Origin: Microbacterium sp. 4R-513
GTDB lineage: Bacteria; Actinomycetota; Actinomycetes; Actinomycetales; Microbacteriaceae
Length of the DNA stretch: 64,000 nt
NCBI RefSeq assembly: GCF_011046485.1
Contig: NZ_CP049256.1
Location: 1,736,001 to 1,800,000, forward strand
Direction: 5' to 3'
The notes beneath the pieces are model-generated. The model worked only from the letters and a program-made list of their open reading frames with translations, had not been told where the DNA came from and ran no database searches. The translations under genes and the position numbers were made by a program. Positions 15,801 to 58,043 of this stretch are shown here, one piece after another (the first letter of the stretch is position 1; every line of letters starts with the position of its first letter).

Positions 15801-15889
15801 GGAGACGTCGCATAGTCAGGCCTAGTGCACCACCCTGCTAAGGTGGAGTCCCCTTACGGGGACCGAGGGTTCAAATCCCTCCGTCTCCG
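15801..15889 (+). tRNA. tRNA-Ser(GCU), integration target
   Basis: Full-length serine tRNA: acceptor GGAGACG / CGTCTCC, three-base D stem, anticodon stem-loop CCACCCTGCTAAGGTGG giving anticodon GCU, long variable arm GTCCCC-TTAC-GGGGAC, and T arm GAGGGTTCAAATCCCTC. CCA is not encoded. Copies of its 3' part from the anticodon loop on recur at 32273, 38768, 50111 (T arm to 3' end only) and 54702, so it is the attB end of a stacked island array. Confidence 0.95.
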
Positions 15890-15991
15890 CGTGAAAACCC
15901 CCGGTAAATGGGGTTTTCTTTTGCAGCGAGCCGCATCTCGAACTGTGTGTGGAGTGCGTGGAGAGGACTGAGTGCGAACCGCCGGTTCGCC
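15833..15991 (+). repeat. Attachment repeat R1: tRNA 3' part plus right arm
   Basis: 159 bases from the anticodon loop (CCCTGCTAAGG) through the tRNA end and about 100 bases beyond. It recurs at 32273-32432 with one substitution (TTACGGGG to TCACGGGG) and one extra T in a T run. The near identity marks the two ends of the first module as its attachment sites. Confidence 0.9.
15894..15923 (+). terminator. Rho-independent terminator after tRNA-Ser(GCU)
   Basis: Stem AAAACCCC / GGGGTTTT followed by CTTTT. The same hairpin style follows every downstream tRNA fragment (32336, 38828, 50150, 54762), so it moves with the attachment site. Confidence 0.8.
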
Positions 15992-16073
15992 TCGGTTCGA
16001 GTCCGGTACGCGAAAAGGCGTCTCGAGTCTGGATGCAGGCGGCGAATGCCTGGTCAGAGGTAGGTTCTCCGTC

Positions 16074-16106
16074 GCGGTGCTCCACCTGATCGAGGTGGAG
16101 CACCGC
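16074..16106. repeat. Perfect inverted repeat in the module 1 left end
   Basis: GCGGTGCTCCACCT / AGGTGGAGCACCGC with a 5-base loop, inside the 341-base stretch 15890-16230, which holds no gene. Weaker forms with an AGGTGGAG or CAGTGGAG core lie at a similar distance after the tRNA fragments at 32273 and 54702. It may be a terminator for the minus-strand manA gene or part of a recombination arm. Confidence 0.6.
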
Positions 16107-16230
16107 CGCTGCATTGGGGCCTCCACGGCGTTCGACTTGTCCACTGGCTGAACTGCCGCGGGCGCCATCTCGTCGTCTGGCGCGAACGCGACGGCTGGCG
16201 CCATTCATGAACGCCTGCGAGCGGTCTCGG

Positions 16231-17445
16231 TCAGTGCTGCGCGGCGGGGTCTGGGCTCGTGACCGCGAGCCAGAGCAGGCCGGAGCCATGCACCGTCAGC
16301 GGGGACTCATCTGGCGAGATGAAGCCAGCGCCACCGCGGGGGAGGGTGAGCGAGGCGTCTGACGACTCCAGGGTCACGTCCGCTCCCTCGACGAGCGCGA
16401 GGGCGGCTCCCGTGAGAGGGATCTCCAGGCCGGGCTGGGCCGAGTCTGCGGCCCACAGGGCGAAGGGCGCTGGAGGTTCGTACGCGACGAGGCCGGGGGC
16501 TACGCGCCTGGCTTCGAGCAGCTCGGGAGGCTGCTGCTCGAAGGAGAGCAATCGAAGCAACTCGAGGGTGTCGATGTGTTTAGGGGTCAAGCCGCCCCGC
16601 ACCACGTTATCGCTGGCGATCATGAGCTCCACACCGACGCCGCTGAGGTACGCGTGGAGCATCCCGGCGGGAGCGAAGAGCGCCTGTCCGCGCTGGAGCG
16701 ACACGCGATTCATCACCAGCGCTACGACGATTCCGGGATCGCCCGGGTAGTGAGTCGCGATCTCGCGAACAGTTGCCCACGACGGAGCCGACGGCGAGGT
16801 CGCAGTTGCCTCCTTCTGCGCGAACGACTCGACGGAGACCGCACATTCAGCTGCCTCAGGCGCGCCGGAGAGCAACCATGCGAGGGCGTCGCCGATACGC
16901 GTCGGGTCGGCGAGGATCTCTCGCAGGGCGCGAGTGGCCGGCACGTCATGCTCCTCGAGTTCGGCCATTATCGCGGCAACCTCGTCCGCTGGTCGGAACC
17001 CGCAGAGCGCATCGAAGCGCCGGCTCACGGCGACGATGATCTCGGGCTTCGGGAACGGATCCTTGTAGTTGCGCGCGGGATCATCGACCGGGATCCCGCG
17101 CGCGTTCTCATCCTCGAATCCGGCGCGTGCCTGTTCGAGCGTGGGGTGCACCTGGAGCGAGAGCGGGGACTCCGCGGAGAGGAGCTTGAGCAGGATCGGG
17201 AGACCTGCGGCCGCGGCATCCGCTCCCGCCAGATGAGGGTGCGCGTGCAACCAATCCGAGAGCGTTGGGTGGCGTTCTTCGCGGTCGGGTGCGACGCGCA
17301 CCGCGCGAGCCGGCGACCCCGCATGAGTGCCGAGCCACAGCTCGGCCTGGGGGCGCCCATCGGGCTCGATGCCTAGGAACTCCGGGATGCCGGTGGTCGA
17401 TCCCCACGAATAGTCGCGCGGCGTGTTGGCCAATTCGATGATCAT
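16231..17445 (-). CDS. manA: Mannose-6-phosphate isomerase, class I
   Basis: Zinc-dependent phosphomannose isomerase (mannose-6-P to fructose-6-P), about 404 residues, the usual class I length. The family start TPRDYSWGS is clear; the zinc-binding LSLQVHPTLEQARAGF and the later ALFAPAGMLHAYLSGVGVELMIASDNVVRGGLTPKHID block are intact. The ATG at 17445 has GAGAGGA upstream; the open frame extends 20 codons further but no ribosome site is there. It is divergent from a LacI gene across a palindromic operator. Within a mannan module it would feed mannose into glycolysis. Confidence 0.95.
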   Translation of the reverse strand: MIIELANTPRDYSWGSTTGIPEFLGIEPDGRPQAELWLGTHAGSPARAVRVAPDREERHPTLSDWLHAHPHLAGADAAAAGLPILLKLLSAESPLSLQVHPTLEQARAGFEDENARGIPVDDPARNYKDPFPKPEIIVAVSRRFDALCGFRPADEVAAIMAELEEHDVPATRALREILADPTRIGDALAWLLSGAPEAAECAVSVESFAQKEATATSPSAPSWATVREIATHYPGDPGIVVALVMNRVSLQRGQALFAPAGMLHAYLSGVGVELMIASDNVVRGGLTPKHIDTLELLRLLSFEQQPPELLEARRVAPGLVAYEPPAPFALWAADSAQPGLEIPLTGAALALVEGADVTLESSDASLTLPRGGAGFISPDESPLTVHGSGLLWLAVTSPDPAAQH

Positions 17446-17480
17446 GGATTCCTCTCGGGGGGCGCGGCGACCATCATACA

Positions 17481-17492
17481 TAAAGCGCTTTA
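17481..17492. promoter_or_regulatory. LacI-type operator TAAAGCGCTTTA
   Basis: A perfect 12-base palindrome TAAAGCGCTTTA in the manA/lacI divergent gap, abutting the -35 region of the lacI gene. The identical palindrome lies at 19785-19796 ahead of the sugar ABC operon. The centre CG with A/T flanks is the LacI/CcpA-family pattern. Confidence 0.8.
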
Positions 17493-17530
17493 GTGACTCG
17501 CGCACGCGAGCGGCGGGTAGGGTTCACTAC

Positions 17531-18577
17531 GTGGTCTCCGAACCTCGGACGCCGGGTTCGCGCGTCACGATCAGCGATATCGCGGCGCGCGCGGGGGTGT
17601 CGATCGGCGCCGTTTCGTTCGCGCTCAACGGTCGTAAGGGCGTCTCCGAGGCGACGCGGAAGCGGGTGCTGGAAGTCGCCGACGAGCTGGGCTGGGCGCC
17701 GGCGAGTGCGGCGCGGTCGCTCGCCGGAGCGCGGACGGACACGTTCGGCATGGTGCTCGCCCGGGACCCGCAGAATCTCGGGGTCGAGTCGTTCTACATG
17801 AAGTTCCTCGCCGGGCTCGAGTCCGAGCTGGCGCAACGCGCCTACGGGCTGTTGCTGCAGGTAGTCCCCGGCGCCGAGCAGGAGCGGGCGACACATGAGG
17901 CCTGGCGGCGCGGTCGCCGCGTCGACGGCGTCATCCTCGTCGACCTACAGGTGGACGACCCGCGAGTCCGCGCCTTTCAGAAGCCGGCCGCCCTCCCCGT
18001 CGTGATCGTCGGCGATCCGAGCCTCGCCGGCGGACTGACGAGCGTATGGACGGATGACGCGGCATCGATGCGCGAGGCCGTGCGCGAGCTCGCCGACCGA
18101 GGTCATCGTCGGATCGCCCGCGTCGCCGGTCTGGAGCATCTCGCGCACACGCGCATCAGGGACGACGCCTTCCTCGACGAGATGGGTTCTCTCGGCCTTC
18201 AGGGCGTGCTGCTTCGCACGGACTACACGCCCGACGAAGGCGCACGGGCCACGCGCGCGGCGCTGGACGGCGATGCGCCGCCGACCGGATTCATCTACGA
18301 CAACGACGTCATGGCAGTCGCCGGGCTCACCGTCGCGCTCGAGCGCGACCTGCGGGTTCCAGACGACCTCTCGATCATCGCGTGGGATGACTCCGTGCTT
18401 TGTGAGCACACCTACCCGGCGCTCAGTGCGCTGAGCCACGACATCGTCGCGTTCGGGGCACACGTGGCGAGGCGATTGTTCGACGTCGTCGACGGCGCCC
18501 AGCCGGGAGCCTTCCTCGACTCGACTCCTCGACTGCGTGCCCGCGCGTCGATCGGTCCCGCACCATCCACTCGGTGA
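17531..18577 (+). CDS. LacI-family transcriptional regulator
   Basis: 348 residues: N-terminal helix-turn-helix VTISDIAARAGVSIGAVSFALNGRKGVSEATR (about 12-43) with a hinge helix, then a periplasmic-binding-protein-like sugar domain. Note SFALNG in place of the usual SRVLNG recognition helix. The GTG at 17531 lies 6 bases after a TAGGGT -10 box (17519-17524), so the transcript is probably leaderless; the operator overlaps the -35. It shares the gap with manA. Either this protein or the LacI at 18614 could bind TAAAGCGCTTTA. Confidence 0.9.
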   Translation: MVSEPRTPGSRVTISDIAARAGVSIGAVSFALNGRKGVSEATRKRVLEVADELGWAPASAARSLAGARTDTFGMVLARDPQNLGVESFYMKFLAGLESELAQRAYGLLLQVVPGAEQERATHEAWRRGRRVDGVILVDLQVDDPRVRAFQKPAALPVVIVGDPSLAGGLTSVWTDDAASMREAVRELADRGHRRIARVAGLEHLAHTRIRDDAFLDEMGSLGLQGVLLRTDYTPDEGARATRAALDGDAPPTGFIYDNDVMAVAGLTVALERDLRVPDDLSIIAWDDSVLCEHTYPALSALSHDIVAFGAHVARRLFDVVDGAQPGAFLDSTPRLRARASIGPAPSTR

Positions 18578-18613
18578 AGCCGATCCTCGAGGCTGGCTGT
18601 GCGCTCCCGCGCA

Positions 18614-19618
18614 TCACGAAGCCGGCGGTCGCTCTCCGCTCCCGCGTGCGAGGAGACGCGTAGGCAGCTCGATGCGGGTCGTGAAACCCGCGGGATCTGC
18701 CATCCGCTCGATCGCGAGCTGCGCCGCGCGCCGCCCGAGCTCGACCGGATCGTGGGTCACAACCGTCACCCCAAGGATGTCCGCCGTGTCGAAGTCATCG
18801 AAACCGATGAGCGAGGGAGTCGCCCCGACATCCCGCATCGCGCGCAGCGCGCCGACGCACATACGGTTGTTGCCCGCGAAGATCGCGGTCGGGGGGTCCT
18901 CGCGCTCGAGCAGCTGGCGCACGACGACGTCTGGCGGCACCGACGTGTCGTCGAGGAGGACCTCCAGCCGCGCATCGGTGAGCCCCGACTCGGCCATGGC
19001 CTCCCGATAGCCGCGGCAGCGCTCGGTCTGCGTGTAGACCGATGCGGGATTGCACACGTAGGCGATGCGGCGATGGCCGTGCCCCAGCAGGTGGCGCGTC
19101 GCCTCGTACGCGCCGGCGCGATTGTCGAGCACGACAGCATCCGCAACGAGGTTCCGCGCCGGACGGTCGATCGCGATGACGGGAGTGCCAAGCTGGCGCT
19201 CACCTTCCAGGTACGACTGGTCCTCGCCGACCGGCACGAGCATCAGCGCGCCCACCCGTTGGGCGAGGAGCGTGTCGGCGACGCGCTCCTCACCCTCTGC
19301 GGAATCGTCTGTCGTCGCGACGACGAGCGTGTAGCCCGCGCCGGCCAGTTCCTTCTCGATGCCCGCTGCGATCGTGTAGTAGAAGGGGTTGCGCAGCTCT
19401 CCCATGATGAACCCGACGGTCGACGAGGCACCTCCTCGGCGCAGCGTACGCGCGATGGTGTTGGGCCGGAAGCGAAGCCGCTTGCCGGCGCTCAGCACCC
19501 GCTCCACGGTCTGTGGGGCGACCTTGTCCCGGTGCGAATAGACGCGCGAAACGGTCTTCGCGCTCACGCCTGCCAGCCGCGCGACGTCGTCCAGGGTGGC
19601 GCGCTGCTGCACGGTCAT
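18614..19618 (-). CDS. LacI-family transcriptional regulator
   Basis: 334 residues: helix-turn-helix ATLDDVARLAGVSAKTVSRVYSHRDKVAPQTVERV (about 7-41), then a ligand-binding domain with VGFIMGELRNPFYYTI. The ATG at 19618 has a strong site (GAGGAGGA) and is preferred over longer in-frame starts near 19777. It is divergent from the sugar-binding protein gene, with the palindrome TAAAGCGCTTTA in between, and convergent with the first LacI gene. It probably represses the importer and glycosidase operon until manno-oligosaccharide or mannose is present (inferred). Confidence 0.92.
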   Translation of the reverse strand: MTVQQRATLDDVARLAGVSAKTVSRVYSHRDKVAPQTVERVLSAGKRLRFRPNTIARTLRRGGASSTVGFIMGELRNPFYYTIAAGIEKELAGAGYTLVVATTDDSAEGEERVADTLLAQRVGALMLVPVGEDQSYLEGERQLGTPVIAIDRPARNLVADAVVLDNRAGAYEATRHLLGHGHRRIAYVCNPASVYTQTERCRGYREAMAESGLTDARLEVLLDDTSVPPDVVVRQLLEREDPPTAIFAGNNRMCVGALRAMRDVGATPSLIGFDDFDTADILGVTVVTHDPVELGRRAAQLAIERMADPAGFTTRIELPTRLLARGSGERPPAS

Positions 19619-19784
19619 GAGTCCTCCTCGTTGGGGTCGACGATCCGATGATATCGCCGATGACGACGTAGGACATTTCACCGACATCCGATCCACGGTG
19701 TGCTCACCGAAGTGCGCCCACAGCCGCGGATTGTCGCGCAGCACCGAGGTTGCGGGCCACCGGACATTTCGGGACATCGCGAAC

Positions 19785-19796
19785 TAAAGCGCTTTA
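19785..19796. promoter_or_regulatory. LacI-type operator TAAAGCGCTTTA
   Basis: Second exact copy of the 12-base palindrome, about 95 bases upstream of the binding-protein ATG. It ties manA and the importer-glycosidase operon into one regulon. Confidence 0.8.
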
Positions 19797-19891
19797 CATC
19801 GCGCTCAACTTGTCCTACGCTGACATCCCGAACCCCGAGGCGCGGAACGTCCCGCGCCGAGCACCGGGGACAGATACAAGGGAGTAATCAC

Positions 19892-21214
19892 ATGGCACCT
19901 CGCAAGGCAGTGTTCGGCCTTGTCGCTCTGGCCGCGGTCTCGACGCTCGCGCTGACATCGTGCTCGGGCGCAGGATCCAGCGAGTCAGACTCGGGCGAGC
20001 CCAGCGGCGACATCACGTTCCTGACGAACCGCACGGACCTCGAGACGGACGGCACCTGGGAGACGTACGTCGCGGAGTTCAACAAGGAGTTCCCCGACGT
20101 CAACGTCAAGGTCGAGGCGATCACCAGCTACGCCGACGACGTCAAGACCCGCATGAGCAGCCCGAACGGGTACGGCGACGTCCTGATGATCCCGCCGAGC
20201 GTCTCGGCCGACCAGTTCCCCGACTTCTTCGAGTCGCTCGGCACCGTGGACGAGCTGGCCGAGACCTACCGATTCCAGGCTCCCGCGAGCTACGACGGCG
20301 AGCAGTACGGCATTGCTCTCGGCGGCAACGCGAATGGCGTCCTGTACAACACGGCCGTCTGGGAGGGCGCCGGCATCACCGAGCTGCCGAAGTCGGCCGA
20401 TGAGTTCCTCGCCGACCTCGAGCTCATCGCCGACAACACCGACGCGACACCCCTCTACACGAACTACAAGGACGGCTGGCCTCTGGGTGGCCAGTGGTTC
20501 TCGAACGTCGGCGCCGTCTCCGGGAACGCCGAAGCGCAGAACGAGATGGCTCACGACGAGTCGCCGTGGACGGAGGGCAACGACGTCTACGCCATCGACG
20601 GGCTGCTGTACGACATCGTGCACGAAGGCCTGAGCGAAGAGGACCCGCTGACGACCAACTGGGAGCAGTCGAAGGGCGACTTCGCGACCGGGAAGATCGC
20701 GACCATGGTGCTCGGCTCGTGGGCGATCTCGCAGTTCCAGGCCGCCGCCGAGGACGCGGGTGTCGACCCCAGCGCGGTGGGCTTCATGGCCTGGCCGGCC
20801 ACCGCGGACGACGGTACGCAGTACGCCACGATCGGCGGCGACTACAACATCGCGATCAACAAGAACTCGTCCAACAAGGCGGCGGCTGAGGCGTGGATGA
20901 ACTGGCTGCTCGAGGACTCGGGCTTCACCGAGTCGCAGGGGATGATCTCGGCACTCCGTTCGGCGTCGCTTCCCGCCAACCTCGGGTCCCTCTCGGAGAA
21001 CAGCGTCGAGCTTATCGAGGCCGCTCCTGCTCCTGAGGGTGAGGAGGGTCTGCTCAACAACATTGCCGACCAGTCGCAGGTCGACGTGTGGGGCAACATC
21101 TACCGCCAGAAGATCGTCGACATCGCCCGCGGTCAGGCCGACGGCGATAAGGACTCGTTCTTCGCCCAGCTCAACGAGCAGTGGGGCGCGGCCGTGAGCG
21201 AGCTCGCCGGCTGA
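19892..21214 (+). CDS. Sugar ABC transporter substrate-binding lipoprotein
   Basis: Extracellular solute-binding protein (family 1, MalE-like), 440 residues. A signal peptide with lipobox LTSC (Cys about 24) makes it a lipoprotein. The mature part starts with an Asp/Glu/Ser-rich stretch, then FLTNRTDLETDGTWETYVAEFNKEFPDVNVKVE. It is the first gene of the importer operon; the ATG has AAGGGAG upstream. Context (two permeases, GH2, GH113, GH36 genes) suggests manno-oligosaccharides or galactomanno-oligosaccharides. No ATPase gene is in the operon, as is usual for actinobacterial importers that share an MsiK-type ATPase. Confidence 0.93.
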   Translation: MAPRKAVFGLVALAAVSTLALTSCSGAGSSESDSGEPSGDITFLTNRTDLETDGTWETYVAEFNKEFPDVNVKVEAITSYADDVKTRMSSPNGYGDVLMIPPSVSADQFPDFFESLGTVDELAETYRFQAPASYDGEQYGIALGGNANGVLYNTAVWEGAGITELPKSADEFLADLELIADNTDATPLYTNYKDGWPLGGQWFSNVGAVSGNAEAQNEMAHDESPWTEGNDVYAIDGLLYDIVHEGLSEEDPLTTNWEQSKGDFATGKIATMVLGSWAISQFQAAAEDAGVDPSAVGFMAWPATADDGTQYATIGGDYNIAINKNSSNKAAAEAWMNWLLEDSGFTESQGMISALRSASLPANLGSLSENSVELIEAAPAPEGEEGLLNNIADQSQVDVWGNIYRQKIVDIARGQADGDKDSFFAQLNEQWGAAVSELAG

Positions 21215-21219
21215 TCCCC

Positions 21220-21240
21220 TGCCCGCGTACGGCGCGGGCA
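21220..21240 (+). terminator. Hairpin between binding protein and permease genes
   Basis: TGCCCGCG / CGCGGGCA with a short loop, followed by a second small hairpin (GACCCC TGA GGGGTC type) near 21254. It is likely a partial terminator or mRNA stabiliser that gives more binding protein than permease, a common arrangement. Confidence 0.55.
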
Positions 21241-21322
21241 CATCGAATCACCATGACCCCTGAGGGGGTCGGAGTCCCATCAGAGGAGAAGTCCATGTCC
21301 GTCTCGACGAACGCACCACTTC

Positions 21323-22294
21323 GTGCGGGAATCTCCGGCCCCCCTCAGCGAGTCGATCGACGCCGGGGCGCGCAAGCGCCGCAAGAAGGGCGGGCGCGCC
21401 AGCGCCGGCGGGTCGGGTCCCGCTGGCCGCGGCCGGTTCGCCCGAGTCACGCCCTACCTGTTCATCGCAGCCGCCGTCGGGCTGCTCCTGCTGCTGACGT
21501 ATGTGCCCGCTGTCAACATGATGTGGTACTCGGTCCACGAGTGGCGGGGCCTCGGCCCCATGGGCGACTTCGTGGGCCTGGACAACTACGTCGAGGTCTT
21601 CACCAACCCGCGCATCTTCGCGGTGTTCGGCGTCAGCCTGTACTACTTTGTCGGGTCCTTCGTCCAGATGGCGATCGCGCTGTACTTCGCAACCCTCCTC
21701 AGCTTCAGCACGCGCTTCTCGAACTTCTTCCGTGGCGTCATCTTCTTCCCCTACCTCATCAACGGCGTCGCGATCGGATTCGTGTTCCTCTACTTCTTCC
21801 AGCCGGGAGGCACGCTCGACACGCTCCTGTCGTGGGTCGGCGTGACCGATCCGCCGCAGTGGCTCGGCGACGCGTCGATCGCGAACTTCTCCCTCGCCGG
21901 CACGTCGGTGTGGCGCTACACCGGCCTCAACTTCGTGCTCTTCCTGGGTGCGATCCAGTCGATCCCCGCCGAGCTGTACGAAGCGGCGCAGATCGACGGC
22001 GCGAGCCGCTGGCAGCAGTTCGTCAACATCATCTTCCCCGGGATCCGCCGCATCATCGGTCTGTCGTTCATCCTCGCGGTCGCGGGTAGCCTCTCCGTGT
22101 TCGAGATCCCCTACATCATGACGACCGGCGCCAACGGCACGGCGACCTTCGTCATCCAGACGATGCAGACCGCATTCAACTTCCGCCAAGTGGGTCTCGC
22201 CTCGGCGATGGCCGTCGTGCTGCTCGTCATCGTGCTGCTCGTCACCTGGATCCAGCGGAAGGCATTCCCCGACGAGAAGGTCGACCTGTCATGA
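21323..22294 (+). CDS. Sugar ABC transporter permease (MalF type), start frameshifted
   Basis: Inner-membrane permease, about 323 residues with six main helices and the EAA motif EAAQIDGASRWQQFVNIIFPGI. The frame as written opens at a GTG (21323) with no ribosome site. A convincing start, ATG 21295 with GAGGAG upstream, is in another frame and would join exactly if the six-C run at 21339-21344 had five C: it would then read RAGISGPLSESIDAGARKRRK. So either one C was gained or it is a sequencing error. The protein downstream is full length. The stop overlaps the next permease (ATGA). Confidence 0.88.
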   Translation: MRESPAPLSESIDAGARKRRKKGGRASAGGSGPAGRGRFARVTPYLFIAAAVGLLLLLTYVPAVNMMWYSVHEWRGLGPMGDFVGLDNYVEVFTNPRIFAVFGVSLYYFVGSFVQMAIALYFATLLSFSTRFSNFFRGVIFFPYLINGVAIGFVFLYFFQPGGTLDTLLSWVGVTDPPQWLGDASIANFSLAGTSVWRYTGLNFVLFLGAIQSIPAELYEAAQIDGASRWQQFVNIIFPGIRRIIGLSFILAVAGSLSVFEIPYIMTTGANGTATFVIQTMQTAFNFRQVGLASAMAVVLLVIVLLVTWIQRKAFPDEKVDLS

Positions 22295-23109
22295 AACGCA
22301 CACTGCCCGGAATCGGGAAGTACGCCTCGCTCATCCTCGCGACGATCGTCGTGCTGCTCCCACTCTCGGTGCTCCTGTTCGCGAGCTTCAAGACCAAGCA
22401 GGAGTATGCGACGACCGGCCCCCTGACGCTCCCGCAGAGTTGGTTCAACTTCGACAACTTCGTCACGGCGTTCCAGCAGGGCGACATGCTCTCCGGCTTC
22501 GTCAACACGACAATCGTCCTCGTGATCTCGCTCGTCGGCACGATCCTCATCGGGTCGATGGCGGCCTATGCGATCGACCGGTTCCACTTCCGGGGCAAGG
22601 CGCTCGTGATGGCGCTCTTCCTCATTGCGACGCTCATCCCGAGCGTCACCAGCCAGGTCGCGACCTTCCAGATCATCAACGGTCTTGGCCTGTTCAACAC
22701 GAAGGCCGCGCTCATCCTGCTCTTCATGGGCACCGACATCATCGCGATCTACATCTTCATCCAGTTCATGCAGTCGATCCCCGTCTCGCTCGACGAAGCC
22801 GCCATGCTCGACGGCGCCAATCGCTGGACGATCTACTGGCGCGTCATCCTGCCGTTGCTCAAGCCCGCGATCGCGACCGTCGTCATCATCAAGGGCATCG
22901 CGATCTACAACGAGTTCTACCTGCCGTTCTTGTACCTGCAGTCGGAAAGTCTGATCTCGACGGCGCTGTTCCGCTTCAAGGGCCCGTTCGGTGCCCAATG
23001 GGAGGTCATCGCCGCCGCGACCATCCTCGTCATCGTCCCCACCGTCATCGCATTCGTCTTCCTTCAGCGCTGGATCTACAAGGGCCTCGTGGCCGGAGCC
23101 GTCAAATGA
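22291..23109 (+). CDS. Sugar ABC transporter permease (MalG type)
   Basis: Second membrane subunit of the importer, 272 residues, six helices, EAA motif DEAAMLDGANRWTIYWRVILPLLKPA (about 169-194). The ATG overlaps the previous stop and its own stop overlaps the beta-mannosidase ATG (ATGA), so permeases and intracellular glycosidases are translationally coupled. Confidence 0.94.
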   Translation: MKRTLPGIGKYASLILATIVVLLPLSVLLFASFKTKQEYATTGPLTLPQSWFNFDNFVTAFQQGDMLSGFVNTTIVLVISLVGTILIGSMAAYAIDRFHFRGKALVMALFLIATLIPSVTSQVATFQIINGLGLFNTKAALILLFMGTDIIAIYIFIQFMQSIPVSLDEAAMLDGANRWTIYWRVILPLLKPAIATVVIIKGIAIYNEFYLPFLYLQSESLISTALFRFKGPFGAQWEVIAAATILVIVPTVIAFVFLQRWIYKGLVAGAVK

Positions 23110-50178: not shown

Positions 50179-50340
50179 ATTAGATGAATTCCGACTTATG
50201 CCTCCACCTAGGGCATTTTCGGTGTCCAAGGGTCCCCCAAGGGGACCCTTGGGGGAGCCCTGCGGTGCACTACCCGAACTGCATGGCGCGTTGGAGCAGC
50301 AGGAGCCGCGTGATTCCGCGGTTGTGCAGGTCGCGGGCCG
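50179..50340 (+). repeat. Right-arm repeat of module 4
   Basis: Homologous to 54791-54955: CATTTTCGGTGTCCAAGGG.. / CACTTTGGGCGCCCAGGGG.., a GGGTCCCC inverted repeat (AAGGGTCC...GGACCCTT at 50228-50250), CCTGCGGTGC, then AGGAGCCGCGTGATTCCGCGGT (50302-50322). No gene is seen in 50165-50447. Confidence 0.8.
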
Positions 50341-50447
50341 CCGCAGTGCGACACCCTTCCACAGGTGGTGTACGTAAGGGGCCCAGTCGGCAACGCCGTC
50401 AAATGCTAACGCTGGGCTGAGGTGTTCCCTCGGAGGGCAGCTGTCTT

Positions 50448-51437
<990 letters not shown>

Positions 51438-52340
51438 TCAGTCCTTTCCGGCCGTGGCGTCGGCGTTGTGCGTCGTCGGGTCGGAGCCTGCAGCATCCTG
51501 TGTCGCCTGCCAGCTGGCGAGCAGGCGGAAGCGCTCTTCGCTCTCGGATCCGTACTGCGGCACGTAGATGAGGAACGTGAGCCCGGGATGCTGTACGAAC
51601 TGCAGGTCTTCGTAACGCAGCTCGAGCGCGCCGACGATGGGGTGGGTGAAGTGTTTGACCCCGGCGCCATGCTGGCGCACGTTGTGCGCGCCCCAGCGCA
51701 CGCGGAATTCGTCGCTGCGGGTGGAGAGTTCGCCGACGAGGTCTTGGAGGCCCCGGTCGTAGGGGTCGCGGCCGGCCTCGGTGCGGAGGATCGCGACGGT
51801 GATGTCGGCGGCCTTGCCCCAATGCGGGTGGAAGTCGTGCGAGCGGGGGTCGAGGAAGGTATAGCGGGCGAGGTTGCCGCCGGCCGGGGATTCGAGAACT
51901 TCGGCGTACACGGCGCGCCCGAGCACGTTGGCGGCGAGGATGTCCATTCGGCCGTTGCGCACCACTGCCGCGCCTCCCGTTATCGCGTCGAGCATCAGCT
52001 GCATGTCGGACCGGATGGATGTTGTCAGGCCGCGCGTGCGCCGCGATCGCGCGGGCACAGATCCCGCGGCGCGGGCCAAGTCGGCGAGGTGCTCGCGCTC
52101 GGCGTCATCGAGCTGCAGGGCCTGCGCGATCGCGTGTAGCACGGACTCGGAGGCGCCCGCGATCTGACCGCGTTCGAGCTTGGCGTAGTACTCGATACTG
52201 ACACCGGCGAGCATCGCGACCTCGCTTCGCCGCAGACCCGGCACGCGACGGTTGCTGCCACCCGGGATTCCCGCCTTGTCGGGGGTGAGCTTCGCACGAC
52301 GCGAGGTGAGGAACTCACGCACCTCTGCCTTGTTGTCCAT
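51438..52340 (-). CDS. XRE-type regulator with MmyB-like ligand domain
   Basis: 300 residues, paralogue of 34621-35511: same MDNKAEVREFL start, helix-turn-helix RRSEVAMLAGVSIEYYAKLERGQIAGASESVLHA, and MmyB-like domain (GKAADITVAILRTEAGRDPYDRGLQDLVGELSTRSDEFR). It is divergent from the CMD-cupin-AKR operon and operonic with the aldo/keto reductase at 50448. Probably a local redox/xenobiotic switch; effector unknown. Confidence 0.93.
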   Translation of the reverse strand: MDNKAEVREFLTSRRAKLTPDKAGIPGGSNRRVPGLRRSEVAMLAGVSIEYYAKLERGQIAGASESVLHAIAQALQLDDAEREHLADLARAAGSVPARSRRTRGLTTSIRSDMQLMLDAITGGAAVVRNGRMDILAANVLGRAVYAEVLESPAGGNLARYTFLDPRSHDFHPHWGKAADITVAILRTEAGRDPYDRGLQDLVGELSTRSDEFRVRWGAHNVRQHGAGVKHFTHPIVGALELRYEDLQFVQHPGLTFLIYVPQYGSESEERFRLLASWQATQDAAGSDPTTHNADATAGKD

Positions 52341-52457
52341 GCCGTCACGCTACGCGCGGTACCGGGCCAGGGGGGTGCTCTACGAGTACACGTTCCGCAA
52401 GGGACTCCCTCGATCATGCGGGCAGGGGTTGGGTGGAGTCTGGCGAAGGAGGACACC

Positions 52458-52793
52458 ATGGCGGATGAGCAGAGCGGATGGACCGGCGGGCAGCGTGCGT
52501 TCGGAGAGTTCGCACCGGGATTGGTGCATTACACCGACGATGTGCTGTTCGACGAGGTGTGGGAGCGGGATGACCTGTCCAAGCGCGACCGAGGCCTCGT
52601 CACGGTCGCCGCGCTGACAGCGCTGGGCAAGACGGATCAACTGCGATTCCACCTCGACTTCGCCCGTCAGAACGGGGTCACCGACCAGGAGCTGAAGGAA
52701 GCCATCCTGCACCTCGCGTTCTACACCGGCTGGCCCAACGGCATGGCTGCGATGACCGTCTTGAAGGACATCACGACCAATGAGAACAACTGA
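52458..52793 (+). CDS. Carboxymuconolactone decarboxylase (CMD)-family protein
   Basis: Small alpha-helical protein of 111 residues: FGEFAPGLVHYTDDVLFDEVWERDDLSKRDRGLVTVAALTALGKTDQL, then AILHLAFYTGWPNGMAAM. There is no Cys pair, so it is not the AhpD-type peroxidase and resembles gamma-CMD proteins. The ATG has a strong GAAGGAGGA site. It is first of a coupled set CMD-cupin-AKR-DUF2255. Function outside protocatechuate breakdown is usually unknown. Confidence 0.9.
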   Translation: MADEQSGWTGGQRAFGEFAPGLVHYTDDVLFDEVWERDDLSKRDRGLVTVAALTALGKTDQLRFHLDFARQNGVTDQELKEAILHLAFYTGWPNGMAAMTVLKDITTNENN

Positions 52794-53217
52794 GATGAGC
52801 TTCGACAGCCTGTTCCCGCGGGGGGAGAAGAACGATGCGTTCGGGCAGTACTTCATCGGGCAGAGCTATCTCCAGCCGCTGGCGAGCCTCGGGATGAGCG
52901 TCTCCAACGTGACGTTCGAGCCCGGATGCCGCAACAACTGGCACCGTCACAATGCGACCTCCGGCGGTGGCCAGATCCTGCTCGCGACCGTCGGGAGCGG
53001 CTGGTTCCAGGCGGAGGGGGAGGAGCCGCTCAGCCTCGAACCCGGGACTGTGGTCGAGATCCCCGCCGGGCAGAAGCATTGGCATGGTGCGAAAGCCGAC
53101 TCGTGGTTCAGCCATGTCGCCATCGCAGTCCCTGGCGAGGACACCGCCAACGAGTGGCTTGAACCCGTCACCGACGAGTACTACGAGACCCTGAACGAGA
53201 AGCGGAGCAACGCGTGA
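52780..53217 (+). CDS. Cupin-domain protein
   Basis: 145 residues, one cupin: motif 1 NNWHRHNATSGGGQILLATVGSGWF, motif 2 PGTVVEIPAGQKHWHGA, then SWFSHVAI. The histidines for metal binding are kept. The start at 52780 overlaps the CMD gene by 14 bases; an ATG at 52795 (MSFDSLFPRG) is an alternative just after the CMD stop. The stop overlaps the AKR start (GTGA). CMD-cupin pairs are common; the enzyme activity is unknown. Confidence 0.9.
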   Translation: MRTTEMSFDSLFPRGEKNDAFGQYFIGQSYLQPLASLGMSVSNVTFEPGCRNNWHRHNATSGGGQILLATVGSGWFQAEGEEPLSLEPGTVVEIPAGQKHWHGAKADSWFSHVAIAVPGEDTANEWLEPVTDEYYETLNEKRSNA

Positions 53218-54071
53218 GCATCCTCACCGAGAGATACAACCTGGCGAACGGTGTCGAAATCCCGAGACTCGGGCTGGGCACCTGGTTCATCGACGACGAC
53301 AAGGCGGCGGATGCGGTGCGCAGTGCCGTCGAGATCGGCTACCGGCACATCGACACCGCGCAGGCGTACGGTAACGAGCGCGGGGTCGGCCAGGGCATCC
53401 GCACCGCCGGCGTGCCCCGATCCGACCTGTTCGTGTCGACCAAGCTCGCCGCGGAGATCAAGGACTACGACACGGCCGCCGCTTCGATCGACGAGTCGCT
53501 CGACCGGCTGGGTCTGGAGTATGTGGACCTCATGCTGATCCACAGCCCGCAGCCCTGGGCGGACTTCCGCGGCGGAGACTACGCCGACGGCAACCGCGCG
53601 GCATGGCGTGCTCTTGAAGAAGCGCACACTGCCGAGAAGCTCCGCGCGATCGGCGTCTCGAACTTCCTCGAGGCGGACCTCGAGAACATCATCGACAGCG
53701 GCACCGTCGTGCCGCACGTGAACCAATTGCTCGTGCACGTCGGCAACACCCCCACCGACCTGCTGAAGTCCTGCGACGACCGCGGCATCCGTGTGCAGGC
53801 GTACTCGCCAATCGCACACGGGCAGATGCTGAAGAACAGTTTCGTTGCCGAAATGGCGAAGACCTACGGTGTGACCGTGCCGCAGCTCTGCATCCGATAC
53901 ACCCTCCAACTGGGCACCGTCTCACTACCGAAGACCGCGAACCCCGACCACATGCGGGCAAACGCCGACGTCGACTTCGAGATCTCCGACGTCGACATGG
54001 CCGATCTGCGGAACATGGAGGCGCGGGACTACGGCGACGACAGCCGGTTCCCCGTCTACAGCGGGAAGTGA
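53214..54071 (+). CDS. Aldo/keto reductase (2,5-diketo-D-gluconate reductase type)
   Basis: 285 residues of the AKR5-like group: GLGTWFIDDDKAADAVRSAVEIGYRHIDTAQAYGNERGVGQ (catalytic Asp and Tyr), Lys in FVSTKL, His in MLIHSPQP. Cofactor loop SLPKTANPDHMRAN. The GTG overlaps the cupin stop and its stop overlaps the DUF2255 gene, so it is translationally coupled. It differs from the other AKRs in modules 2 and 4. Confidence 0.94.
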   Translation: MSILTERYNLANGVEIPRLGLGTWFIDDDKAADAVRSAVEIGYRHIDTAQAYGNERGVGQGIRTAGVPRSDLFVSTKLAAEIKDYDTAAASIDESLDRLGLEYVDLMLIHSPQPWADFRGGDYADGNRAAWRALEEAHTAEKLRAIGVSNFLEADLENIIDSGTVVPHVNQLLVHVGNTPTDLLKSCDDRGIRVQAYSPIAHGQMLKNSFVAEMAKTYGVTVPQLCIRYTLQLGTVSLPKTANPDHMRANADVDFEISDVDMADLRNMEARDYGDDSRFPVYSGK

Positions 54072-54430
54072 GAGCGGAAGGACGACCCGCGAGCGAGGGC
54101 ATGATGGCCGGCTGGGATGCCGTTCAGGACGGCACCACCTATGGCACGCCGACGGGGATCTGGTCTGTCGTCGTCGACGGGGAGCTGTACGTGCGCGCCT
54201 GGCATGGCACCGGCTCCCGCTGGTATCAGGCAGCAGTGACCCAGCACCGCGGACGAATTCGAGTTGCCGGACACGTGCGCAAGGTGCGGTTCGAACAAGC
54301 CGACGCATCCGTCGGCGATGCGGTCGATGACGCCTACCGGACCAAATATGCGGGGAGTCTCTACCTGCCCCCGATAATCGGCTCTGGTCCTCAGGCTGCG
54401 ACCGTGCCCACCAGCCCTTCGCGCGGATGA
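54068..54430 (+). CDS. DUF2255-family protein
   Basis: 120 residues. The core GIWSVVVDGELYVRAWHGTGSRWYQAAVTQHRGRIRVAGHVRKVRF followed by VDDAYRTKY matches DUF2255, often found beside aldo/keto reductases and SDRs in actinobacteria. The GTG at 54068 overlaps the AKR stop (GTGA). It is probably a small ligand- or nucleotide-binding protein; no function is established. It is the last gene of module 4. Confidence 0.8.
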   Translation: MRAEGRPASEGMMAGWDAVQDGTTYGTPTGIWSVVVDGELYVRAWHGTGSRWYQAAVTQHRGRIRVAGHVRKVRFEQADASVGDAVDDAYRTKYAGSLYLPPIIGSGPQAATVPTSPSRG

Positions 54431-54522
54431 CGTCGCCGATATTGTTTGTGGGCCGGTTCCCGCGTCCACCTAGTCGAGCGACATCCACGTCCGTGGCGGC
54501 TGGCGCGGACGGCCCGAGACCA

Positions 54523-54701
54523 GGGGTCCCCCAGGGGTCCCCGAGCATCCCGAGCACGCCGAGTCCCGGTGACTGTGAAGTGTGCGGAGTGTGTGGAGTG
54601 CGGCCGGCCTCAGGACGGGAATCACCCGGTGAAGCACCAAATCCGCGTGATTCGGCGGCAGAACGCTAGCGCGCCACCGAGGCCGCGGATGGCTGAATCT
54701 A
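54523..54701 (+). repeat. Left-arm repeat before attachment site R5
   Basis: 179 bases homologous to 32095-32272: GGGGTCCCCCAGGGGTCCCC then GAGCATCCCGAG at the left, GTGGAGTGCGGCCGGCC in the middle, CCGCGTGATTCGGCGGCA at 54643-54660, and GGCTGAATCTA at the tRNA fragment. Same length and distance to the core as at R2. Confidence 0.88.
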
Positions 54702-54790
54702 CCCTGCTAAGGTGGAATCCCCTTACGGGGACCGAGGGTTCAAATCCCTCCGTCTCCGCATGAAAACCCCAGGTTATCCAGGTTTTTTCG
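54702..54790 (+). repeat. Attachment repeat R5: tRNA-Ser 3' fragment plus terminator
   Basis: 58 bases of the tRNA from anticodon loop to 3' end with one G-to-A change next to the anticodon stem (GGTGGAATCCCC), keeping the TTACGGGG variable loop of the intact tRNA. The hairpin GAAAACCCCAGG / CCAGGTTTTTTC follows. No tRNA 5' half precedes it. Confidence 0.92.
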
Positions 54791-54995
54791 CTTTGTGTGC
54801 CGTCGGTCGCATGCCCCTCATCGAAGGCACTTTGGGCGCCCAGGGGTCCCCCAGGGGGACTCTTCGGGGACCCCTGCGGTGCGCCGCCCTCACTACGCTG
54901 ACACCTCGGAGCGTCAGGAGCCGCGTGATTCCGCGGTAGTTCCCGTCGGAGGCGGCTGCAAGCGCAACACCCCTCCAGAGGTGGAGCACCCTCGC
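54791..54995 (+). repeat. Right-arm repeat of module 5
   Basis: Homologous to the arm at 50179. It contains a strong inverted repeat CAGGGGTCCCC / GGGGACCCCTG (54841-54876), CCTGCGGTGC, AGGAGCCGCGTGATTCCGCGGT (54917-54937) and CTCCAGAGGTGGAGCACC (54974-54991). Between 54431 and 55141 only repeats are seen, no intact gene. Confidence 0.8.
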
Positions 54996-55141
54996 TTGGT
55001 TATGGCAGCTGACTAGCGATTGTCCGCTCGCATCAGTGCCGGCGGCGACGCGTTCTTCGGAGCTCGCCGGGTCGGACACTTGGTCTAACGTGTCCAGTTC
55101 CGCAGCGGCGGCTCGCACCCGGGCAGCCGCGTCTTCGGAGG

Positions 55142-55374
55142 GGCGAGTTCCCTGGCGATTGTTCATGACGAGGGAGACCGCGTACCCGTCAGGCCGGATC
55201 ACCCTTCCCGGGCTCGACCCGGCACGAAAGTACCGGGTCGAGCCTTTCGGGATGCAGGACACCCACGGGTCGGGGCTTTCCGACCTGGAATGGATGAGGG
55301 CGCCGCTCGTCGCCAGCGGACGAGAACTCGCGGTCGTCGGCCTGCGCCCGATGACGGATGTGCCACAACGCTGA
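55142..55374 (+). pseudogene. Alpha-galactosidase (GH36) C-terminal remnant
   Basis: An open stretch encoding LFMTRETAYPSGRITLPGLDPARKYRVEPFG...WMRAPLVASGRELAVVGLRPMTDVPQR. GRITLPGLDP..KYRVE and the terminal SGRELAVVGL match the last about 70 residues of GH36 enzymes (compare VSGRVLAEVGLQLPTLWP at the end of the gene at 29731). The catalytic barrel is missing. It shows that a sugar module once lay next to R5. Confidence 0.7.
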
Positions 55375-55461
55375 CTGGTGCTCAGCGTGACGGCCGCGGA
55401 CTGACCCGTCCGAGATCCCGCCCGACCTCGGTTGCGCTGCAAAGGGCCGTCCGCGGCTGAG

Positions 55462-56457
55462 TCATGTGAGGGTGATGACGGTCTTGCCGCGCGTGCCTGC
55501 CACGCTGAGGGAAGCGAGCGCCTCAGGTGTCTGCGCGAAGGGGAAGGTCCTCCCGACGACCGGGCGAATCGCGCGGGCGTCCACCAGTTCGGCGATCTGG
55601 CGAAGCTGCTCACCCGAGGCCTGCATGAACAGGAACTCGTAGCTGACTCCCGCCTGTGCCGCCTGTGCCCGGACCTTCCTGCTGAGGCCCCTGATCGCGA
55701 GGCGAAGAATCGGATTCAGTCCCGCCTTCTTGGCGAATGCCGGGGTCGGCGGCCCGGAGATCCCGATGGCCTTCCCGCCGCGCTTGAGCACTCGCAGAGA
55801 CTTCGCCAGGTTCTCGCCGCCGAGACTGTCGAGGACGAAGTCGTAGTCCGACAGTTCCTGCGTGAAGTCTTGCGTGCGGTGGTCGATCACGACATCCGAT
55901 CCCAGATCTCGCAGGAAGTCGGCGTTCCTGCCGGATGCTGTCGTCGCGACGAAAGCCCCGAGATGCTTGGCGAGCTGGATGGCGATCGTGCCCACGCCTC
56001 CGCTGCCGGCGTGGATGAGCACCTTCTGACCGGGTTGCACGTCGCCGAGCACCACGAGAGCCTGCCATGCGGTCAGCGAGACCAGTGGTAGCGACGCGGC
56101 CTCTGCCAGGCTGACCGAAGTGGGGCTGGGGGCGAGATCGGACTCGTGCACGGCGATGCGCTCAGCGAAGGTTCCGATCCGGTGATCGCGGAGGCGGGCG
56201 TACACGGCGTCGCCCGCTTGGAATCCCCGGACTTTACTGCCCGTTCGGATAACCGTCCCGGCCAGGTCGTGGCCGAGCGTCAGCGGGAGACTGTAGTGGA
56301 GGATCCGCTTGAACTCGCCGAAACGGATCTTCTCGTCGAGCTGGTTCACTCCCGCCGCTGCCACCTGGACGAGAACGTCGTGGTCGCCCACGGTCGGCTC
56401 AGCGACATCCGCCTCATGCAGGGGATGCTTGTACGAATCGAAGACGAACGCTCTCAT
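55462..56457 (-). CDS. NADP-dependent quinone-oxidoreductase-like MDR protein
   Basis: 331 residues, MDR superfamily without catalytic zinc: MRAFVFDSYKHPLHEADVAEPTVGDHDVLVQVAAAGVNQLDEKIR at the start, LTLGHDLAGTVI, and the Rossmann motif LIHAGSGGVGTIAIQLAKHLGA at about 146-167. Related to zeta-crystallin/QOR and to 8332-9336, but not a close copy. It is 15 bases downstream of the SDR gene on the same strand, so the two are cotranscribed, with the TetR gene divergent. Confidence 0.92.
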   Translation of the reverse strand: MRAFVFDSYKHPLHEADVAEPTVGDHDVLVQVAAAGVNQLDEKIRFGEFKRILHYSLPLTLGHDLAGTVIRTGSKVRGFQAGDAVYARLRDHRIGTFAERIAVHESDLAPSPTSVSLAEAASLPLVSLTAWQALVVLGDVQPGQKVLIHAGSGGVGTIAIQLAKHLGAFVATTASGRNADFLRDLGSDVVIDHRTQDFTQELSDYDFVLDSLGGENLAKSLRVLKRGGKAIGISGPPTPAFAKKAGLNPILRLAIRGLSRKVRAQAAQAGVSYEFLFMQASGEQLRQIAELVDARAIRPVVGRTFPFAQTPEALASLSVAGTRGKTVITLT

Positions 56458-56472
56458 GACTCGCCCCGACCT

Positions 56473-57186
56473 TCACGCGCCCGCTGCAAGCTGCGGGTAC
56501 ACAGCCTCGAGCGGTGCCGACAAGCCCGCCTTCGCGCGGCGAGAGGTGTCATCCGCCAGCAGTTCGATCCCGCCCGCCTCCAGCGTGTCGAACACCATGA
56601 CGGCCAACTCGGCCGGGTCGAGCTTCGGGTCTGCGCTGTGCGCCGCCATGGCCGTGTCGACGTAGCCGACGTGCACGCCCAGAACCTGCACGCCCGCAGG
56701 CTGCAGCTCTAGGCGAAGGGAGTTCGTTACCGACCACAGCCCCGCCTTCGTCGCCGAATAGATGCCCGCCACGGCGTACCAGGACAGGGCGGAGTGGATG
56801 TTGACGATCGCCGTGTTGCCACCCCGGGCCGCGAGCGCCGGAGCGTACGCACGCGACAGCATCAGCGGTCCGACGAGATTGGTCTCGACATTGCCGCGGA
56901 TCTCCTCGTCGCTCTGAGAGAGGATGCGGCCCGTGGATGCCGAGGCGCCCGCGTTGTTGATGAGCACCGTGACGTCGGGAGCCGCCTCGAGGACGCCCCG
57001 GATGGAAGCCGGAGCGGTGACGTCGAGCACCACGGGAACGACCCGGTCGTCGCCCCACGCGCGCGGTGTGCGCGCGGTGGCATACACCTTGGAAGCGCCG
57101 CGAGCGAGGGCCTGATCCACGAGCCGGGTGCCGATCCCGCCGTTCGCGCCCGTGATGAGCACGACGGCTCCGTCGAGAGAGGTCAT
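56473..57186 (-). CDS. Short-chain dehydrogenase/reductase
   Basis: SDR of 237 residues: VVLITGANGGIGTRLVDQAL (NADP motif, about 8-27), INNAG, catalytic Ser in NIHSALSWYAVAGIYSATKAG with Tyr-x3-Lys (YSATK). The ATG at 57186 is favoured because the Rossmann strand follows at once; longer in-frame starts enter the operator. It is the first gene of an operon with the oxidoreductase and faces a TetR gene across a palindrome, so it is probably TetR repressed. Confidence 0.92.
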   Translation of the reverse strand: MTSLDGAVVLITGANGGIGTRLVDQALARGASKVYATARTPRAWGDDRVVPVVLDVTAPASIRGVLEAAPDVTVLINNAGASASTGRILSQSDEEIRGNVETNLVGPLMLSRAYAPALAARGGNTAIVNIHSALSWYAVAGIYSATKAGLWSVTNSLRLELQPAGVQVLGVHVGYVDTAMAAHSADPKLDPAELAVMVFDTLEAGGIELLADDTSRRAKAGLSAPLEAVYPQLAAGA

Positions 57187-57284
57187 CTGATTCCGCTTTC
57201 TGTCGATTTCGATGGGTCGCAGACTCTCCCCGCTTGTCACGCGTGGCATGGGAAGATCGTGGAGAGGCCGAGTTTTGTCATTAC

Positions 57285-57312
57285 TGACTCCACTCATAAC
57301 TGAGTTTGGTCA
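57285..57312. promoter_or_regulatory. Probable TetR operator
   Basis: Interrupted palindrome TGAC-TCC-ACTCA-TAAC-TGAGT-TTG-GTCA, 28 bases, in the gap between the SDR and tetR genes. Both the outer and inner arms are perfect. Confidence 0.7.
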
Positions 57313-57336
57313 CCAGCTATTCCCGAGAGGCGGAGA

Positions 57337-57945
57337 ATGACGGAGACATCGATTCCGGCCGGCCGCCGGGAACGCAACAAGCAGGCGAAGCTCGAACGGA
57401 TCATCGCCGCAGCCAGCACTCTGTTCGCCGAGCGCGGCGTGGACGACGTGACCACGCAGCAGATCGCGGATGCCGCCGACATCGGCACCGGAACACTCTT
57501 CCTCTACGCCAAGACGAAGGGCGAGCTGCTCCTGCTCGTGCAGAATGCCCACTACGAAGAAGCGCTCGGTCGCGGACGAGCCGCCGCCGACGGTATGGAG
57601 GACCTGGTCGACGCGCTGATGGCGATAATCGGGCCGATCGTGGAGTGCAACCGCGTGCACATCGACAACGGACGCAGCTACCTGCGCGAAATGGTCTTCG
57701 GAGACCCCGGTGAGCCGCGGCACGCGGAGGCGCTCGCGATTGCCGCGAAGACCGAAGCCGCTCTCGCGGCCGTGATCGCACGCGGGGCCGAGATCAGCGC
57801 GGCGGAAGCGGCCGCACTGGCGCGGGCGGTGTCGTCGGTGATGTTCCTCACCATGGCCGCGGGCATCAATGCGACTGCAGACACGGAGGCGCTCCTCGAC
57901 GACATCCGCACCCAAGTGAGCGTGCTCACGCCGCGTGCGGAGTAG
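57337..57945 (+). CDS. TetR-family transcriptional regulator
   Basis: 202 residues. N-terminal helix-turn-helix RIIAAASTLFAERGVDDVTTQQIADAADIGTGTLFLYAKTKGELL (about 20-64); the C-terminal helical domain is variable. The ATG has GAGGCGGAG upstream. It is divergent from the SDR-oxidoreductase pair, with a palindrome between, so local autorepression and repression of that operon is likely. The ligand is unknown. Confidence 0.92.
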   Translation: MTETSIPAGRRERNKQAKLERIIAAASTLFAERGVDDVTTQQIADAADIGTGTLFLYAKTKGELLLLVQNAHYEEALGRGRAAADGMEDLVDALMAIIGPIVECNRVHIDNGRSYLREMVFGDPGEPRHAEALAIAAKTEAALAAVIARGAEISAAEAAALARAVSSVMFLTMAAGINATADTEALLDDIRTQVSVLTPRAE

Positions 57946-57964
57946 CGCGACGCCTTCTGCCTCA

Positions 57965-57992
57965 AGGGTCCCCCAGGGGTCCCCGAGCATCC
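57965..57992 (+). repeat. Left-arm remnant, lost end of a fifth module
   Basis: AGGGTCCCCCAGGGGTCCCC then GAGCATCC, nearly identical to the outer end of the left arm at 54523. No tRNA fragment follows within 200 bases, so the attachment core has been lost or overwritten by the gene ending at 58044. Confidence 0.65.
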
Positions 57993-58043
57993 GTGCCGGT
58001 CCCGGCGCGTCCGCATGGGGGTCCTCAACCGGGCGGGGACCTG

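Follow-up and report, generated by a model that had tools for sequence, protein, structure and literature searches.

The window, by which we mean the whole 64,000-nucleotide stretch of the Microbacterium sp. 4R-513 genome analysed here, raises the question of how gene units without a recombinase came to be stacked behind a tRNA gene, each bounded by pieces of that tRNA. The initial annotation had described five such units over about 42 kb, set off by an intact tRNA-Ser(GCU) and by copies of its 3' part in the same orientation. Both the gene (called as tRNA-Ser(GCT) by ARAGORN at 15801–15890) and the copies were confirmed, as a scan with the 59-nt core over 144 kb gave five sites with 0–3 mismatches and the truncated copy with 16. 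The next-best site had 28 mismatches, which excludes a chance origin of the cores; this gap, together with same-strand stacks in relatives (at least 18 genomes among 47 listed, with 69 searched and our own included, and three more in another survey), led us to reject chance or a local oddity.

15801..15890, + strand: intact tRNA-Ser(GCU), the target gene, which borders the stack on its left
32272..32330, + strand: second core, a 3' copy of the tRNA (sequence match)
38768..38825, + strand: third core (sequence match)
50115..50147, + strand: fourth core, truncated on its 5' side (sequence match)
54701..54759, + strand: fifth core (sequence match)

The in-window copies all lie on the + strand, like the intact tRNA, with 97–98% identity across the retained part. 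That the units are stacked at the 3' end of the tRNA, separated by copies starting in the anticodon loop, was supported, and the hairpins reported after the cores could be read from the letters as an inverted repeat that is rich in GC and accompanied by T residues (weakest after 54759). The extent, however, proved larger than the 42 kb described: a sixth core (95% identical) lies at genome position 1862596, or 126596 in window numbering, 62.6 kb beyond the window, and with it the whole array measures ~111 kb. The fifth unit does start at the fifth core, but it ends at a right-end arm repeat (57963–57984), with the next core ~68.6 kb further. At the distal end of the array, the downstream flank varies among the genomes compared.

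That the units hold no recombinase was borne out by own-genome Pfam searches, Pfam scans of ORFs and a local integrase HMM. The genome has three Phage_integrase (PF00589) matches, one of XerD size and another B-like and next to a tRNA-Arg, and two Resolvase (PF00239) matches, all outside the array. No family-A integrase was seen among the three PF00589 matches, and the stack may therefore be immobile at present. The ORF scans covered 40 window ORFs and 15 ORFs at 64–127 kb, leaving out ten at 87–108 kb, with five further ORFs beyond the last core and outside the array; array ORFs encoded metabolic, transport, regulatory or unknown proteins, and the sole mobile-element-like match was a below-cut-off transposase HTH within a LacI regulator. 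The local HMM had no match in the five units or in 54.8–126.7 kb, and tblastn of five integrases of relatives against the array gave a best E of 0.019, antisense inside a glycosidase gene. A hidden integrase in the array was rejected on these searches.

Beyond the initial annotation, we found that the unit ends form recurrent, conserved, non-coding families (alpha, beta and gamma) that pair the tRNA core with repeats resembling integrase arm sites, and that many left ends hold a second core-like palindrome (the core mimic) 145–215 bp inside, with tRNA-arm flanks and a different spacer.

15891..32271: unit 1, with a mannose-6-P isomerase-like protein, two LacI regulators, sugar ABC transporter, GH2-like protein, GH113, BadF-type kinase, GH5 and GH36
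15945..15981, + strand: beta-type left-end repeat of unit 1, GTGTGTGGAGTGCGTGGAGAGGACTGAGTGCGAACCG
16077..16104: core mimic in unit 1, scoring 20 of 21, with spacer TGATCGA
32092..32113, + strand: alpha-type right-end arm repeats of unit 1
32331..38767: unit 2, with an SDR, aldo/keto reductase (split over two frames), MmyB-type regulator, MFS transporter and zinc alcohol dehydrogenase; beta-type left end
32386..32422, + strand: beta-type left-end repeat of unit 2
32518..32545: weak core mimic in unit 2, scoring 14 (the background level), in a position that agrees with unit 1
38667..38686, + strand: right-end motif of unit 2, TGCGTACTCAGGGCGAACCG
38826..50114: unit 3, with an ADP-ribosylglycohydrolase family protein, sugar ABC transporter, WbsX-like protein and LacI regulators
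38906..38927, + strand: alpha-type left-end arm repeats of unit 3
50148..54700: unit 4, with two aldo/keto reductases, MmyB-type regulator, carboxymuconolactone decarboxylase family protein and cupin; both ends of alpha type
50227..50262: alpha-type arm repeats at the left end of unit 4, in direct and inverted copies
50346..50374: core mimic in unit 4, scoring 17, with spacer CTTCCACA
54521..54542, + strand: exact alpha-type arm repeats at the right end of unit 4
54760..57990: unit 5, with a zinc alcohol dehydrogenase, SDR and TetR regulator; no right core
54841..54876: alpha-type arm repeats at the left end of unit 5, in direct and inverted copies
54962..54990: core mimic in unit 5, scoring 19, with spacer CCTCCAGA
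57963..57984, + strand: alpha-type right-end arm repeats without a core, at the end of unit 5

Unit 1, with a beta-type left and an alpha-type right end, may be a fusion product, to judge from ends of two different families. The arm repeats (CAGGGGTCCCC in our genome) also flank integrase genes at the tRNA-Ser(GCU) of relatives, and the alpha repeats are placed identically after the core in integrase-bearing elements; for the gamma ends, a partner integrase was not found. The exact word CCCAGGGGTCCCC occurs three times in our genome, every time at a unit end, but with one mismatch allowed 4 of 12 arm words also occur elsewhere in it (3 for the reversed control). The position of the mimic is fixed, at +172 to +174 in nine gamma ends and +186 to +214 in nine alpha or beta ends. 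Among 400 random windows of the region, which may include true sites, 69 reached a mimic score of 14, 21 reached 15, 6 reached 17 and none reached 20. No clear mimic was found in unit 3. The mimic was rejected as a known RNA, Rfam matching only the tRNA within 15601–58600.

Integrase-free stacking is not confined to our array: in 18 related genomes, the local HMM found no integrase in 23 of 28 core-to-core units, and the five units with one (a fragment in one case) all adjoin the intact tRNA. We consider it likely, from sequence comparison, that the tRNA-Ser(GCU) 3' end carries stacked integrative cassettes of a non-autonomous kind, moved in trans. A unit would consist of a left end (tRNA core, arm-type repeats and often a mimic whose spacer differs), cargo, and a right end made up of arm repeats and a core, and a tyrosine integrase from another element with the same tRNA and arm repeats would recombine the cores in trans. 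Newcomers would insert next to the intact tRNA and displace older units outward, and the older units could fuse or lose cores. Core borders, conserved ends, arm repeats common to integrase-bearing elements and an integrase-free unit in six genomes are established by the comparison; we infer enzyme action in trans, a circular intermediate and mobility of the window's own units. The movement in trans that the initial annotation proposed is thus plausible, given integrase-free units with shared ends, but for our own units it is put forward conditionally, because units 2 and 4, the two searched against 247 genus genomes, gave no near-identical whole-unit match, only partial matches at 69–84%, most of them not near the tRNA. 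In the two collections searched, no phage or plasmid record matching the core region was found; the 21-nt core is present in three IMG/VR contigs.

Single modules with exact borders, suggested at the outset as a check, did not emerge for units 2 and 4, but one exists in other species. An integrase-free Wadjet cassette of 8.9 kb (8.3 kb in one genome) lies core to core in six genomes, and the only contents found were Wadjet genes, a toxin-antitoxin-like pair and one unassigned ORF. Wadjet is an anti-plasmid system, and its spread on a near-cargo-only cassette draws attention because it acts against plasmids. Cargo identity was 84.3–99.0% over 15 pairs, with flanks 63–72% alike or unalignable. 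In one pair (L123 and G177) the cargo is 99.0% and the left end 67.7% identical; in another (L142 and G138) the values are 88.9% and 96.3%. By these alignments, cargo and left end are of different history, changing at the inner palindrome. This switch and the fixed position of the mimic lend support to a more tentative idea, which we hold possible rather than probable: a tRNA-anchored two-site cassette system in which the tRNA core and the inner mimic are two core-type sites with different spacers. One integrase would insert or remove whole units at the core and swap cargo between left ends at the mimic, amounting to a natural recombinase-mediated cassette exchange, or integron-like shuffling without integron parts.

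The rival that survives best is ordinary accretion and decay, by which each unit was once complete and later lost its integrase by deletion (classical CIMEs), leaving ends that are attL/attR relics and never moved in trans. This is the standard account of CIMEs as outlined in PMC5704250, it predicts the broken integrases found after cores in five relatives (G177, G013, G085, G069 and G093), and it fits the truncated fourth core, the missing right core of unit 5 and the mixed ends of unit 1; integrase relics, which do occur in relatives, were not found in our own array. We nevertheless judge decay unlikely, since integrase-free alpha left ends keep a common layout in several species (inverted arm repeats, then mimic) that is absent from integrase-bearing alpha left ends, where the integrase gene occupies that place, and since the Wadjet unit recurs integrase-free from core to core. 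Homologous recombination of uptaken or conjugated DNA, for which the tRNA repeats would provide short stretches of homology, could draw on the ~200-bp conserved ends and would suit the differing histories of cargo and left ends, but it is very improbable: the identity of the Wadjet unit breaks off at the right core of 21 nt, beyond which the sequence is unrelated, and 21 nt is short for RecA-type exchange. A single ancestral catabolic block with tRNA pieces inserted afterwards can be practically dismissed, for although adjacent units are broadly alike in function and close in GC content (63.5–67.8%), homologues of units 2 and 4 are scattered across relatives, the arm repeats flanking the cores show that these are not bare tRNA pieces, and the nearest named relatives (L078–L080, one tRNA copy each) have no array DNA match in the 7.6–9.0 kb after the tRNA except the core region and 338 bp at 61.5% (L080). 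The block that would have spoken against the initial annotation was not seen; nor was a clean empty site, because downstream synteny with our genome is absent in L078–L080.

The cassettes favoured here allow gene packages otherwise regarded as islands deprived of their integrase to be defined by sequence, through core, arm repeats and mimic, and short DNA sites make it possible to test whether tRNA-site integrases move such packages in trans. One exchange point across the genus links catabolic operons, a complete Wadjet system and a toxin-antitoxin-like pair.

Among known systems, MITEs and pdif modules retain their ends and have the enzyme provided in trans; the array likewise keeps its ends, with an enzyme proposed in trans, but has neither transposase nor dif sites. 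The integrase and mobilisation genes that IMEs carry themselves were not found in it. Like CALINs (PMC11389934), it is an integrase-free array of cargo units with recombination sites, its enzyme presumably encoded elsewhere; unlike CALINs as that source presents them, its sites are tRNA 3' ends and its units 2–22 kb operons. 'Integron-like', the term first applied to it, fits the layout but not the enzyme, as the searches of the array yielded no integron-type integrase, nor any other tyrosine recombinase. Tycheposons also place cargo at tRNA genes, but carry a tyrosine recombinase as described in PMC10872708, whereas the array has none. Among the Microbacterium papers listed (10 of 93 in the largest set), no title or abstract opening describes such an arrangement. 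Closer are the additive flexible genomic islands of Alteromonas (PMC4119200) and Ca. Methylopumilus (PMC10872708, with varying numbers of tRNA-Lys 3'-end repeats), where cassettes are added at a tRNA; the array shares the tRNA insertion point, variable cassettes and tRNA-end repeats, but has arm repeats, an inner core mimic and a candidate integrase partner that those accounts, as far as they go, do not include. CIMEs, outlined in PMC5704250 as decayed elements that move with a neighbour and form tandems with ICEs and IMEs by site-specific accretion, are likewise attL/attR-bounded and arranged in tandem at their target gene. In the array, units 1 and 2 are flanked by full cores, units 3 and 4 have one truncated core each and unit 5 has no right core, and no integration or transfer genes were found inside by the Pfam-scanned ORFs, own-genome searches and local HMM. 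What sets the cassettes apart from CIMEs as outlined there is that the integrase-free ends recur as families marked by inverted arm repeats plus a core mimic, and that six genomes share one integrase-free unit that lacks a matching neighbour. The best reading is that the cassettes resemble both CIMEs and additive islands and differ from them in their dedicated ends.

The initial annotation described an intact tRNA-Ser(GCU) followed by four copies of its 3' end (cores) on the same strand, and all five were confirmed in the window sequence. A sixth copy lies beyond the window at genome position 1862596 of the 3.91-Mb, single-contig genome, and the six sites were unrivalled over 144 kb, the next-best place being mismatched at 28 of 59 positions. 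The protein encoded upstream of the tRNA assigns the genome to Microbacterium, with its best identities in Microbacterium sp. SS28 (84%), M. ulmi (81%) and Microbacterium sp. RU33B (79%). The units between cores were also said to lack an integrase, which held, with no integrase or resolvase within the array. Unit 1 is a mannan/galactoside cluster and unit 3 a sugar-transport cluster, while units 2, 4 and 5 carry oxidoreductases with MmyB-type or TetR regulators; the 15 ORFs scanned at 64–127 kb were mainly genes for catabolism or transport, or unassigned. Cargo of the array recurs at tRNA-Ser(GCU) in other species, because counterparts of the unit 2 SDR gene lie immediately 3' of this tRNA in M. 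yannicii (locus L112, 83.9%) and in the related genome G226 (84%), and relatives of the genes at 78–94 kb sit after the same tRNA at loci L115 and L121. Elsewhere, units 2 and 4 found only partial matches, mainly at sites other than the tRNA. Separately, the unit 2 aldo/keto reductase (window 33589–34555) has its N-terminal part (33959–34555) and its C-terminal part (33589–34443) in two different reading frames and is thus probably a broken gene or a sequencing slip, and the MmyB-type regulators of unit 2 (34621–35511) and unit 4 (51438–52340) share ~72–75% DNA identity.

The tRNA 3' end was searched in 69 single-contig Microbacterium genomes and matched in all of them. At least two same-strand GCU-type copies within ~190 kb were found in 18 of the 47 genomes listed, including that of strain 4R-513 but leaving out G176, whose second copy is ~370 kb off; further stacked genomes beyond these were G174, G188 and G045. 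Relatives carry tyrosine integrases of two families (A and B) immediately downstream of the tRNA, in convergent orientation. Among 28 core-to-core units delimited in 18 relatives, picked for having two cores in the DNA examined, 23 held no integrase and 5 held an integrase gene or fragment, all five adjoining the intact tRNA. Outside this set, genome G138 shows a family-A integrase following its first three cores, and none was found in its two outer units; integrase pieces also follow cores in G177, G013, G085, G069 and G093.

Same-strand 3'-copy stacks were likewise observed at a second tRNA-Ser (3' end GGGTTCAAATCCCACCGTCACCGC) in G242 (C1:394–448 kb; L171–L173), G216 (C1:3838–3902 kb; L174, L175) and G085 (L180), the four copies in G242 (396–445 kb) having no tyrosine-integrase match between them. 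A 1.7-kb unit in M. pullorum (L121:12737–14480) has an alpha left end and a single predicted gene, an APH-type phosphotransferase. The 21-nt core is also present in three IMG/VR viral contigs, with an intact tRNA-Ser and then an integrase-like frame in L181, and a core of right-end type in L182 and L183.

Clustering covered 135 segments that follow cores and 39 that precede partial cores, and yielded recurring families. Alpha ends carry CAGGGGTCCCC-type repeats and gamma ends TTCTGCCACG repeats, in each case at both ends of the unit, and the beta family has the motifs GTGGAGTGCGTGGAG and GAGTGCGAACCG. Unit 1 of the window, with a beta left end and an alpha right end, looks like a fusion; the right end of unit 5 is an arm without a core. 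In the genome of 4R-513, the exact word CCCAGGGGTCCCC occurs three times, each at a unit end, and with one mismatch at 12 sites (seven at unit ends, one at 1800259 just past the window and four elsewhere), compared to 3 sites for the reversed pattern. A 22-nt double repeat has seven occurrences in the window, which fall at six unit ends, and none in 100 shuffles. In A2, a subgroup of integrase family A, an arm-like word stands as two direct repeats in the same position behind the core; this word varies by element (GGGGTCCCC, GGTGACCCC, AGTGTCCC or GTGTACG).

Many integrase-free left ends contain a second core-like palindrome, here termed the core mimic. The mimic of alpha and beta ends has the anticodon-arm flanks GTGCACCACC ... 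GGTGGAGCACC around a different 7–8 nt spacer, and nine sites with a score of 16 or more out of 21 are located +186 to +214 from a core. A search of 2.27 Mb gave 202 matches, of which roughly half were the tRNAs themselves and the remainder were scattered. Reversed sequences gave 138, so that it is the position of this mimic that counts and not its number. The gamma mimic, with T-arm flanks, had 17 matches at +145 to +282 (nine of them within +172 to +174), and the reversed control had 1; of the other 95 matches, most were a single sequence, tRNA-Ser(UGA) to judge by its location, upstream of the target tRNA. Among the units of the window, 1, 4 and 5 have clear mimics, that of unit 2 scores no better than background, and unit 3 shows none that is clear.

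One gamma unit, 8.9 kb long (8.3 kb in G113), was found core to core in six genomes (L123 of M. kunmingense, L142 of M. schleiferi, G157, G177, G138 and G113), and no integrase was found in this cassette in any of them. The L123 copy (11783–20192) encodes JetA, JetB, JetC and JetD, the full type I Wadjet gene set, and an HTH_17/PIN_3 pair, the region of which was also observed near the tRNA in other units (a 3.1-kb unit of G177, and L081). In G177, with four delimited units, and in G138, with five, the cassette is the last; in L123, L142, G157 and G113 it directly follows the tRNA. Over 15 pairs, cargo identity was 84.3–99.0%. The 3 kb leading up to the left core aligned in 7 of these pairs (six at 63–72%, and G177–G138 at 79% over 76 bp only) and failed to align in 8; the 3 kb beyond the right core matched in only one pair, over 206 bp. 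The left 165 bp and the cargo have separate histories, with identities of 67.7% vs 99.0%, respectively, between L123 and G177, and 96.3% vs 88.9% between L142 and G138. The switch between them falls at the mimic. The nearest match to the G177 left end (78%) is another left end in G177, and the G113 cassette has a different left end with ~0.65 kb missing behind it, the break lying ~30 bp past the mimic.

Based on where the tRNA copies begin, we infer that crossover occurs in the anticodon loop. Since their arm words match, A2 integrases are likely agents for alpha units; no partner integrase was identified for beta and gamma units. Strain 4R-513 has one tyrosine integrase related to family B (L017, G000:C1:2649397 region), located beside tRNA-Arg(CCT) and with 48.5–50.5% identity to the tRNA-Ser(GCU)-using integrases of relatives. 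In the proposed mechanism, an integrase would act on the units in trans, the units would pass through circles, and the mimic may be used in the recombination system.

Neither dedicated integrase-free ends nor a core mimic is described in the consulted portions of published accounts, which deal with CIMEs and with site-specific accretion (PMC5704250), additive islands (PMC4119200, PMC10872708), CALINs (PMC11389934) and an archaeon with a partial tRNA copy and no integrase nearby (PMC3119063).
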